Shown here in pieces: positions 9,231 through 12,483 of a DNA stretch of 64,000 nucleotides. The stretch is from positions 6,067,001 to 6,131,000 of the forward strand of contig NZ_CP017147.1 of NCBI RefSeq assembly GCF_001741865.1. Direction: 5' to 3'. Every line of letters begins with the position of its first letter. Positions within the stretch are counted from its first letter, which is position 1. The notes under the pieces were generated by a model. The model was not told where the DNA came from. It did not search any database and was given only the letters and a program-made list of their open reading frames with translations. Position numbers and translations under genes: made by a program. Source of the DNA: Bosea vaviloviae. GTDB lineage: Bacteria > Pseudomonadota > Alphaproteobacteria > Rhizobiales > Beijerinckiaceae.

Positions 9231-9334
9231 AGAGCGTTTTCGAGCGAAGTGGACATCTGTTCGCGTGAAGAAAACGCGTCAAAACAAAGACCTAGAGCAA
9301 TTGAACGATCCAATTGGATCGAAAATTGCTCTAG
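9231..9334. repeat. Short palindromic repeat element (gagcgttttcgagcgaagtgg family)
   Basis: Runs from agagcgttttcgagcg to a terminal gatccaattggatc palindrome (9307-9320) and attgctctag. Diverged relatives are at 12592-12697 (reverse orientation, second half) and 63345-63446, which share the gatccaattggatc palindrome or the gaagtggacac core. Its last four bases form the TAG stop of the DUF1465 gene on the minus strand. Confidence 0.6.
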
Positions 9335-9861
9335 CGGCCAAGCCCCAGCCGCGCCTTCAGGTTGGCAAGCTGGTCCTGCACCGGATTGGCCTGCTCCCGG
9401 GCCAGGCCGGCGCCCGACATCTGGCCTTCGAGATGGCGGATGCGCTCCTGCAGGCGGACCGAATGCGCCATCAGGTCGCGTAGCGCCTGCGGCAAGCGAG
9501 CCACCTCGTCATGGGCCGGCTGCCCCGCAGCGTCGGACATCCTGACCTTGTTGTTCTCGGCACGGGCCTGCTCGGCCGTCATCTCGCCCTCGGCCACGGC
9601 ACGCTGGACCAGGAGCCAGGAGGCGATCTGCATCAATCGCGTCGTCAGGCGCATGCTCTCGGTGGCGTAGGTCAGCGCGACATCACGCGGCAAGGCCGCC
9701 GACTCGGCGCGCCCGTCGCCGTCGAGATAGGATGCCGTCTGCTCGACCAGACCCATGCCCTCGCGAAACAGCAGCATGAAGGCGTCGGATTTGACGAACC
9801 CGCGCGCAAAGGAGATCGCGCCATCGTCAACCTGCGGCTCCAGCATCAGCACATCGTTCAT
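9331..9861 (-). CDS. DUF1465 family protein
   Basis: 176 residues, mostly helical, without signal or membrane segment. It matches the alphaproteobacterial DUF1465 family: an N-terminal block ISFARGFVKSDAFMLLFREG and a C-terminal heptad-like helix, SVRLQERIRHLEGQM. The function is not established. I chose the ATG at 9861 because AAGGGGG lies eight bases before it; an upstream in-frame ATG at 9882 would place that site inside the gene. The stop codon is formed by a repeat element. The gene lies downstream of the small-RNA locus and DUF1192, which recur together in the order. Confidence 0.82.
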   Translation of the reverse strand: MNDVLMLEPQVDDGAISFARGFVKSDAFMLLFREGMGLVEQTASYLDGDGRAESAALPRDVALTYATESMRLTTRLMQIASWLLVQRAVAEGEMTAEQARAENNKVRMSDAAGQPAHDEVARLPQALRDLMAHSVRLQERIRHLEGQMSGAGLAREQANPVQDQLANLKARLGLGR

Positions 9862-10001
9862 CGCGGTGTCCCCCTTCGGCACAACAGCGTTTGCGTCAGG
9901 GACGCGGCAACGCTTCAGGCCGACAACACCGCAAGGATAGCGCCGAAGCGCGATCAGGGCTGCGGTAAGATTGGGTTAACCTTAACGGGCTAATGCAGCC
10001 C

Positions 10002-10027
10002 AAAAAAGAGCCGCCCTCAGGCGGCTC
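10002..10027 (-). terminator. Intrinsic terminator, minus strand
   Basis: An 8-bp perfect stem (10008-10015 with 10020-10027, gagccgcc) has a four-base loop and is followed on the minus strand by six T. It would end the candidate sRNA and any read-through from the DUF1192 gene. Confidence 0.85.
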
Positions 10028-10093
10028 GAAGGTCAACAGGGAGGCGTCAAACAGAGTGGGCAGGAGCCACTCGACATCCAGACAAACTGGACA
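10002..10093 (-). ncRNA. Candidate small RNA with anti-Shine-Dalgarno motifs
   Basis: Read on the minus strand, this non-coding stretch shows three stem-loops. They are TCCAG-TTTGT-CTGGA, then GAGTGG-CTCCTGC-CCACTC with CUCCU in the loop, then an unpaired GACGCCTCCCTG, then a GAGCCGCC/GGCGGCTC terminator with six T. CU-rich loops complementary to ribosome-binding sites plus a terminator are the hallmark of alphaproteobacterial trans-acting sRNAs. The 5' end is inferred from a TATGAAT -10-like box at 10100-10106. No convincing ORF is present. The exact family is not identified. Confidence 0.5.
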
Positions 10094-10097
10094 ATGC

Positions 10098-10131
10098 GAT
10101 TCATACTTTGGAATCGTTAAGAGACCCTTAA
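10098..10131 (-). promoter_or_regulatory. Candidate CtrA box with two GANTC (CcrM) sites
   Basis: On the minus strand TTAAGGGTCTCTTAAC (10131-10116) is an exact TTAA-N7-TTAAC, the CtrA consensus. GANTC methylation sites follow at 10111-10115 and 10098-10102, the second touching a TATGAAT -10-like element. With a start near 10093 the CtrA box centres near -31, the position of activating CtrA sites. GcrA acts at promoters carrying methylated GANTC. Combined cell-cycle control is inferred. Confidence 0.5.
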
Positions 10132-10154
10132 TGACGCAAGGGCAGAAGGCTGGC

Positions 10155-10355
10155 TCAATCCGGTTTGCGGAAGAAGGCGTCGGCCGCCGAGCGCGAAGCA
10201 TCCTTCTTGGCCCGGGCCTCGGCCAGGCGCTCGATCTCGGCCTTCAGCGCCTCGACGCGCTGGTCGATCTCGGCCAGCGACAGCATCGAAAGATCCTGCC
10301 CGATTTCATGCACGGATTTTGGCTTCGGACGGTCATCCTCTGGAAAGATCGACAT
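10155..10355 (-). CDS. DUF1192 family small protein
   Basis: 66 residues with the DUF1192 pattern: an N-terminal MSIFPEDDRPKP, then LSMLSLAEIDQRVEALKAEI, a short coiled-coil helix, and a basic tail. The function of the family is unknown; it is widespread in Hyphomicrobiales and usually lies near DUF1465, as here. The internal ATG at 10355 is chosen because the family begins at this Met and the upstream sequence has no family similarity. The stop lies 24 bases before the candidate CtrA box of the sRNA. Confidence 0.8.
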   Translation of the reverse strand: MSIFPEDDRPKPKSVHEIGQDLSMLSLAEIDQRVEALKAEIERLAEARAKKDASRSAADAFFRKPD

Positions 10356-11760: not shown

Positions 11761-12483
11761 GTGTCGAATCCCCCGCTGATGCCGAAGGCCACCGCGGTCT
11801 GGCTGGTCGAGAACACGTCCCTGACCTTCGAGCAGATCGCCGAGTTCTGCAAACTCCATCCCCTCGAAGTGCGCGGCATCGCCGATGGCGAAGTCGCCGC
11901 CGGCATCAAGGGCCTCGACCCGATCACCTCGGGCCAGCTCACCCGCGAGGAACTCGAGCGCGCCGCCAAGAACCCGAGCCACCACCTCAAGCTCGCCGAG
12001 CGCAGGGTGAAGGTGCCGGAGATGAAGAAGTCCAAGGGGCCGCGCTACACGCCGGTCTCCAAGCGCCAGGACCGCCCCAATGCGATCCTCTGGCTGCTGC
12101 GCAACCACCCCGAACTCAAGGACGCGCAGATCATCCGCCTGATCGGCACGACCAAGTCGACCATCGCCCAGATTCGCGACCGGACCCACTGGAACGCCCA
12201 GACCCTGTCACCGATCGATCCTGTCAGCCTCGGCCTGTGCTCGCAGATCGATCTCGATTTCGAGGTCGGACGCGCCGCCAAGGACCGTCCCGCCGCGATC
12301 GCCGAGATCGGCTCGACCCTGCTCCCCGCAGAGGAGACGACCGCGCCGGCGCCCGCGCTCAACCAGACCTTCGCCGATATGGGCAAGCCGAAGCGCCAGG
12401 AAGAAGAGGCCATCGACGTCGATTCGGTCTTCTCCAAGCTGAAGCAGCTCAAGCGCCCGGCCGAGGAAGACGAGGAAGACTGA
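11761..12483 (+). CDS. DUF1013 family protein (TrcR-type cell-cycle regulator)
   Basis: 240 residues. The N-terminal 200 residues match DUF1013: PLMPKATAVWLVENTSLTF, LHPLEVRGIADGEVA and a predicted HTH-like region NAILWLLRNHPELKDAQIIR-LIGTTKSTIAQIR. The family is alphaproteobacterial and has been named TrcR, a cell-cycle transcriptional regulator, in some annotations; that name is recalled, not tested. The C-terminus is acidic (AEEDEED). The start is GTG with AGGAG eight bases upstream, and no ATG fits. A small hairpin (11722-11736, ccggtc/gaccgg) lies just before the ribosome site. Confidence 0.85.
   Translation: MSNPPLMPKATAVWLVENTSLTFEQIAEFCKLHPLEVRGIADGEVAAGIKGLDPITSGQLTREELERAAKNPSHHLKLAERRVKVPEMKKSKGPRYTPVSKRQDRPNAILWLLRNHPELKDAQIIRLIGTTKSTIAQIRDRTHWNAQTLSPIDPVSLGLCSQIDLDFEVGRAAKDRPAAIAEIGSTLLPAEETTAPAPALNQTFADMGKPKRQEEEAIDVDSVFSKLKQLKRPAEEDEED

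Follow-up and report, generated by a model that had tools for sequence, protein, structure and literature searches.

We identified a predicted small RNA gene on the minus strand at 10002-10131 of the window (the whole 64-kb stretch of DNA that was analyzed). It belongs to the BjrC1505 family, is preceded by a CtrA-box motif, and is followed by an rcdA homolog. Taken as a whole, we consider it rather probable that this RNA is driven by phosphorylated CtrA and acts in trans through pairing of its CCUCCC segment with Shine-Dalgarno regions. We predict that it is switched by CtrA because it matches BjrC1505, has an rcdA-like gene downstream, and carries a conserved CtrA-site motif. Judged from sequence, CtrA control of the predicted RNA is well supported, and its anti-Shine-Dalgarno action is likely. 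A translation block by pairing, with solute-binding-protein mRNAs among the targets, is what we infer from these features.

A covariance-model search, suggested as a check when a small RNA was originally predicted here, matched the whole RF02356 (BjrC1505) Rfam model, positions 1-140, at 91 bits (cut-off 50, E = 5.2e-16). On the strength of this score, the RNA at 10001-10137 is a member of a known family. No other Rfam match in the window rose above its cut-off, and a DNA search found the BjrC1505 RNA in single copy in its own genome. The transcript presumably made in the host organism would be ~91 nt long (10092-10002), rather than the 90 nt first proposed. Two open reading frames cross 10002-10131, one of 101 aa on the minus strand and one of 518 aa on the plus strand; we judged that neither is a gene there because the conservation is that of an RNA structure with compensatory changes. 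BjrC1505 has reportedly been detected as an RNA in Bradyrhizobium. In the literature that we searched, to which the founding paper does not belong, the name BjrC1505 was found as a list entry only, and no connection between BjrC1505 and CtrA was found. As far as that literature goes, two points look new: positions 1 to ~40 of RF02356 would be promoter DNA, and the DUF1465 neighbor is an RcdA homolog. BjrC sRNAs were first listed in Bradyrhizobium japonicum USDA 110 (PMC7143759). The features of the locus are summarized in Table 1.

Table 1. Features of the predicted small RNA locus and its neighbors, in window coordinates
Feature	Position	Strand	Basis or remark
Ribosomal protein L31	8746-8994		
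RcdA homolog (Pfam DUF1465)	9331-9882	-	PDB 3ctw RcdA, E 5e-38; PF07323, E 6.9e-55
RF02356 BjrC1505 match, promoter part included	10001-10137	-	91 bits
Predicted small RNA, ~91 nt	10002-10092	-	Start from box and -10, end from terminator
Intrinsic terminator, 8-pair stem and six T	10002-10027	-	6 of 8 pairs changed on both sides
Near-invariant segment GACGCCUCCCUGUU	10035-10048	-	Alignment of 41 loci; proposed pairing seed
CCUCCC	10039-10044	-	Loop of weak hairpin 10033-10050
Hairpin 2, GAGUGG-CUCCUGC-CCACUC, loop CUCCU	10054-10072	-	Fold; loop motif lineage-specific
Hairpin 1, GUCCAG...CUGGAU	10076-10092	-	97.9% of cells paired; 2 pairs changed on both sides
GANTC site 2, GAATC on the minus strand	10098-10102		Overlaps -10 region
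-10-like hexamer TATGAA	10100-10105	-	11 nt past box
GANTC site 1, GATTC on the minus strand	10111-10115		About -20, between -10 and -35
CtrA box TTAA-N7-TTAA(C), TTAAGGGTCTCTTAAC	10117-10131	-	First base 39 nt upstream of predicted start
DUF1192 gene, just upstream of RNA	10155-10355	-	PF06698, E 7.3e-23

The promoter region looks as the original prediction had described it. The exact TTAA-N7-TTAAC box is present and is the only exact TTAA-N7-TTAA match in the window, where 0.01 would be expected; the two GANTC sites and the TATGAAT element (10105-10099) follow it, with the start predicted at ~10092. A sigma-70 scan found neither a full promoter at the RNA nor a -35 hexamer. The window has fewer GANTC sites than its shuffles predict (92 vs 343), as is usual under CcrM methylation, and two sites in one 40-bp stretch have a chance of ~0.0016 at the window's density. 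The genome encodes both CtrA and a full-length GcrA. The first base of the box lies at -39 of the predicted start, the same position as in the Caulobacter ctrA P2 promoter, where a full CtrA motif is described as activating; at ctrA P3, CtrA is thought to repress from -14, and, in Caulobacter promoters, GANTC between -10 and -35, where one of the two sites lies here, has been linked with activation at 40-60 minutes (PMC4287350). By analogy, we infer that CtrA binds the box and activates the predicted RNA. The RF02356 consensus itself begins with a degenerate CtrA box, and positions 1 to ~40 of the model cover the box, the 11 nt after it, and the -10-like hexamer; the model appears to count promoter DNA as RNA.

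The segment 10093-10002 folds at -35.1 kcal/mol (z = -3.4 vs shuffles), and its minimum-energy fold consists of two hairpins, a weak third with CCUCCC in its loop, and the terminator with six T. Three stem-loops, exposed CUCCU and CCUCCC motifs, and such a terminator had been proposed: the hairpins, the CUCCU loop, and the terminator were recovered, whereas CCUCCC sits in the loop of the weak hairpin and not in a plain linker. Across 24 diverse sequences, 97.6% of the cells are paired, and two-sided changes occur at 10 pairs, vs a shuffled mean of 2.7; among the same sequences, the weak hairpin (10033-10050) shows none. The CUCCU loop was expected to be conserved in the genus, and it occurs in 35 of the 38 loci of the Bosea-like genus group (g1) but in only 17 of 59 loci elsewhere. 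On these alignments, the CUCCU loop is a lineage trait, and the near-invariant part is GACGCCUCCCUGUU.

Both the RNA and its box are widespread among relatives. RF02356 scored above its cut-off in 56 of 61 relatives, with the window's own genome counted. At E 0.001, in a search whose filters lose weak matches, it was absent from 342 of the 387 class genomes, and it was found in 0 of 14 control genomes, which included Caulobacter vibrioides. We examined 99 RF02356 matches, of which 97 had the core string; nine more rows were left out. The box was present with at most one mismatch at 37 of 38 g1 loci (34 exact) and at 55 of 59 loci outside the group (24 exact), counts that are biased because the RF02356 model used to find the loci itself includes the box. 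Subject to the same bias, RF02356-found loci in genomes labeled as the same class carried it in 33 of 34 cases (16 exact). The original prediction was to fall if the box and the loop motif were not conserved in the genus; the non-coding RNA gene and the CtrA-box motif of its promoter are kept together there and beyond, and the prediction survives that check. The box halves are kept while the N7 between them varies, with 25 distinct N7 sequences in the 37 boxed g1 loci. At 11 nt past the box, all 37 of these loci and 39 of the 55 boxed loci outside the group have a hexamer that resembles a -10 element (T, then A or T).

We also gathered loci by the RcdA protein alone, keeping the best 80 of 564 matches, a set centered on Bosea relatives; among those with a name, the loci closest to the window's are from Bosea (Hyphomicrobiales). 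A string search found the RNA core upstream in 66 of these 80 loci, at distances of 135-362 nt from the rcdA match. Each of the 66 was boxed, 28 exactly and 38 with one mismatch, the latter mostly TTTAC-N7-TTAA. Shuffles of the same 90-nt stretches contained a box with at most one mismatch in 562 of 6600 cases (8.5%) and an exact one in 34. The box starts 78-85 nt before the core in 59 of the 66 loci, and some of the seven boxes outside this distance may be due to chance. For the genomes without a core string, we used R1, a covariance model of the 3' part of the RNA built from 39 loci, which holds no promoter. It was applied to 13 of the 14 such genomes, leaving out one locus (L114) with 336 nt of upstream sequence. 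R1 matched just upstream of rcdA in seven, all of them boxed (four exact, three with one mismatch), and found no RNA in the other six, all metagenome-assembled. In total, 73 of the 80 rcdA loci (best 80 of 564) have the RNA, and all 73 have the box at one mismatch or fewer, 32 of them exactly.

Across the 387 class genomes, 143 had R1 matches, a number that is not a count of BjrC1505 RNAs because weak R1 matches include other CCUCCC RNAs. Among 40 further R1 hits, a box was found for 9 of 9 of the GAYGCCUC type (five exact), 4 of 10 of the GAAGCCUC type, and 5 of 21 of the rest, compared with 327 of 8000 random 70-nt windows. The difference between the GAYGCCUC type and the other types (9/9 vs 9/31) was significant (Fisher P = 0.0002). 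Therefore, the box goes with the GAYGCCUC RNA type and not with CCUCCC RNAs generally. Another type of CCUCCC RNA, with the core GUGAAGCCUCCCUGU and a terminator, mostly has no CtrA box (L224, L234, L235, L238, L239, L241, L243, L250, L252, and L256). Two genus genomes carry second, weaker copies of the 3' part near 1501 (L090 in G005 and L091 in G016); neither copy has a CtrA box, and a search of the surrounding 1.5 kb found no rcdA. Two genomes from a single genus have RNA copies in tandem, ~200 nt apart (L060 with G379:C6:79514-79656, and L093 in G238:C10).

In some other bacteria, RcdA takes part in the degradation of CtrA, a regulator of the cell cycle. In the window, the RcdA homolog lies 119 nt downstream of the RNA match on the same strand. 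The RNA had been placed between DUF1192 and DUF1465; both genes do flank it, and the latter now has an identity in the match to RcdA (3ctw). Between the RNA terminator and rcdA, a TTAA-N2-TTAA at 9976-9985 could provide CtrA half-sites for rcdA itself; Sinorhizobium meliloti has a complete box at the corresponding position. A homolog of TrcR (PF06242, transcriptional cell cycle regulator) is encoded on the plus strand at 11761-12483, 1.6 kb away, so the region of the RNA contains more than one cell-cycle gene.

The same order of genes was found in Sinorhizobium meliloti. In CP090106.1, DUF1192, a 362-nt gap, DUF1465/rcdA, and a convergent rpmE follow one another as in the window. The gap contains an exact box and a diverged RNA (R1, 37.3 bits, E = 5.8e-7) that scores 27.2 bits against RF02356, below the cut-off. 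A second exact CtrA box lies between the RNA and rcdA (L422:2345). The record (L422) is filed as pSymB and carries rcdA and rpmE, and it looks like a mislabeled chromosome. ChIP-seq in S. meliloti is reported to place CtrA upstream of rcdA, with rcdA mRNA described as unchanged on CtrA depletion (Pini 2015, PMC4433202). In our reading of the sequence, this binding would serve the RNA at least partly; the unresponsive rcdA fits that reading without testing the RNA. We compared five of the eight plasmid-collection records with an rcdA match. In Sinorhizobium K101 and Shinella, whose records are unannotated there, rcdA is preceded by a box, the RNA, and a second box; in Methylobacterium, the RNA scores 50.5 bits and its box has one mismatch; and the Sphingomonas rcdA locus (L426) has neither RNA nor box. 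The rcdA gene of Hyphomonas, by contrast, is reported to lie outside the control of CtrA (PMC7200025).

Based on these observations, we propose the following mechanism. When phosphorylated CtrA is high, the RNA would be transcribed from the box promoter. Its CCUCCC segment would pair in trans with the Shine-Dalgarno regions of mRNAs, and this pairing would mask ribosome-binding sites and block translation. The targets may include solute-binding-protein mRNAs, and in the Bosea-like genus group, methylation of the two GANTC sites by CcrM may contribute to the timing. Anti-Shine-Dalgarno pairing, mostly on transporter mRNAs, has been demonstrated for NfeR1 and is the presumed mode of action of AbcR1/2 (PMC7143759, PMC10746234).

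Solute-binding-protein mRNAs are a weak lead. We searched 14 genomes for ACAGGGAGG, a Shine-Dalgarno sequence with perfect complementarity to the RNA, shortly before an ATG, covering 67 of 71 places and 55 proteins of at least 100 aa, and ~17 of the 55 were solute-binding. This figure sums six Pfam families, assumed non-overlapping, among the 25 of 51 families listed, and two of the proteins are near-identical copies. The controls, drawn from the first 30 loci each and comprising 17 proteins each, contained 3 of 17 for ACAAGGAGG and 0 of 17 for the other. The excess reached significance against the pooled controls (3/34, P = 0.013); against ACAAGGAGG alone it did not (P = 0.23). In the window's own genome, three of five ACAGGGAGG places are solute-binding by the look of their proteins. 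A single conserved mRNA target was also considered and rejected: the 10-mer ACAGGGAGGC has nine sites in the own genome, one of them the RNA gene and none convincing, and no 10-mer complement at a start codon stood out there.

The arrangement at rcdA could also be that of a regulated leader, in which one CtrA-driven transcript is made, with the hairpins and terminator working as an attenuator in front of rcdA and the short RNA arising as a by-product. The shared strand, the 119-nt distance, and the frequency of the element at rcdA (73 of the best 80 of 564 loci) favor this explanation, and in agrobacteria more than one start site and a possible CtrA site are described upstream of rcdA (PMC10469942). 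We nevertheless regard a leader as unlikely. The terminator shows covariation, and the near-invariant CCUCCC linker suits a trans seed better than a leader. The second exact box in S. meliloti could serve rcdA itself, whose mRNA there is reported as unchanged on CtrA depletion (PMC4433202). Using tblastn, rcdA was not found downstream at 24 of 97 loci of the Rfam set, where short flanks or a diverged RcdA could hide it. The box might instead be a site of repression by CtrA, or an element of promoters in general, ahead of an ordinary housekeeping or stress small RNA. This is improbable in our estimation: CtrA does also repress from some positions (PMC4287350), but the box is at the activating P2 position (-39) and not at the repressing one of P3 (-14), and the fact that no -35 hexamer was found also argues against this explanation.

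The original comparison with the Caulobacter sRNA CcnA raises the possibility that a CtrA-induced RNA pairs with the ctrA and gcrA leaders. In both, a CtrA box precedes a non-coding RNA that has a C-rich motif (PMC8959179). However, when the linker was matched with 12 ctrA and 7 gcrA leaders, its duplex energies were ordinary (lowest shuffle fraction 0.08, none below 0.05), in a test that used mononucleotide shuffles with no accessibility term and with two gcrA starts placed inexactly. The locus, between DUF1192 and rcdA, also appears to differ from that of CcnA, which is at the origin, and the absence of RF02356 from the controls extends to Caulobacter vibrioides. Nothing that we found links the RNA to CcnA, and we give a CcnA-like regulator very little credence. 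GcrA and CcrM methylation could instead be the main control, as might be supposed from the two GANTC sites at fixed places (32 of 37 boxed g1 loci), the depletion of GANTC in the window, and the full-length GcrA. Outside g1, however, where the CtrA box is kept, a GANTC within the 40 nt that begin at the box was found at only 3 of 55 boxed loci, which makes this explanation barely plausible. The GcrA part of the original prediction may hold within the genus group only: because the GANTC pair is confined to g1, any GcrA/CcrM input would be a genus-level addition to CtrA control.

If the CtrA-driven, trans-acting reading is true, BjrC1505, a family for which no described regulator was found in the literature searched, gains one in CtrA, the class's master regulator of the cell cycle. 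The RNA gene adjoins the gene for a CtrA-degradation factor at 73 of the 80 rcdA loci (best 80 of 564), and the reading would explain simply how, in S. meliloti, CtrA can bind ahead of rcdA with no effect on rcdA mRNA. A more far-reaching proposal is that CtrA has in BjrC1505 an ancient riboregulatory output across the Alphaproteobacteria, in which one conserved locus joins a CtrA-switched anti-Shine-Dalgarno RNA that lowers nutrient-uptake (solute-binding-protein) mRNAs once per cycle to the CtrA-lowering rcdA, and in which the S. meliloti binding serves the RNA and not rcdA; we offer it tentatively and consider it doubtful. The reading also carries the warning that the RF02356 model would be treating promoter DNA as RNA.

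Several known RNAs resemble the predicted RNA in part. Its 3' part aligns with SorX, suhB/mmgR, and SorY, which have CCUCCCU and a terminator in common with it, each match falling below the cut-off of the family. SorX (RF02784) and SorY (RF02651) share the 3' module CCUCCCUGUUG plus the terminator; membership in either was rejected at 20.4 bits (46.6 needed) and 16.5 bits (111 needed), respectively, as was membership in suhB/mmgR (RF00519), at 20.1 bits against a cut-off of 41. AbcR has partial homology to this last model. NfeR1/ar14 and AbcR1/2, like the window RNA, have a C-rich anti-Shine-Dalgarno motif in unpaired parts, and their described targets are rich in transporter mRNAs, as in our weak target lead. 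Membership in ar14/NfeR1 was rejected, as ar14 is described with CCUCCUCCC in three hairpins, a motif absent from the window RNA, and NfeR1 transcription is described as controlled by sigma-70, LsrB, and NtrC and not by CtrA. EcpR1 of S. meliloti is likewise a cell-cycle-linked rhizobial sRNA. It is described as stress induced and located downstream of divK-pleD, with a loop 1 that targets dnaA and gcrA; only the locus (divK-pleD vs DUF1192-rcdA) sets it apart in identity. CcnA of Caulobacter crescentus is non-coding as well, and a CtrA box precedes its start; it is described as a 182-nt RNA at the origin whose CCCC loop pairs with the ctrA and gcrA leaders (PMC8959179), whereas the window RNA lies between DUF1192 and rcdA. 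BjrC1505 itself has the hairpins, the CCUCCC linker, and the terminator in order, plus the CtrA-box region, all of which are present in the window RNA. Nothing essential differs, except that we read the window sequence as an RNA plus its promoter and not as RNA over the full length; to RF02356, the present analysis adds the predicted control by CtrA and the position beside rcdA.
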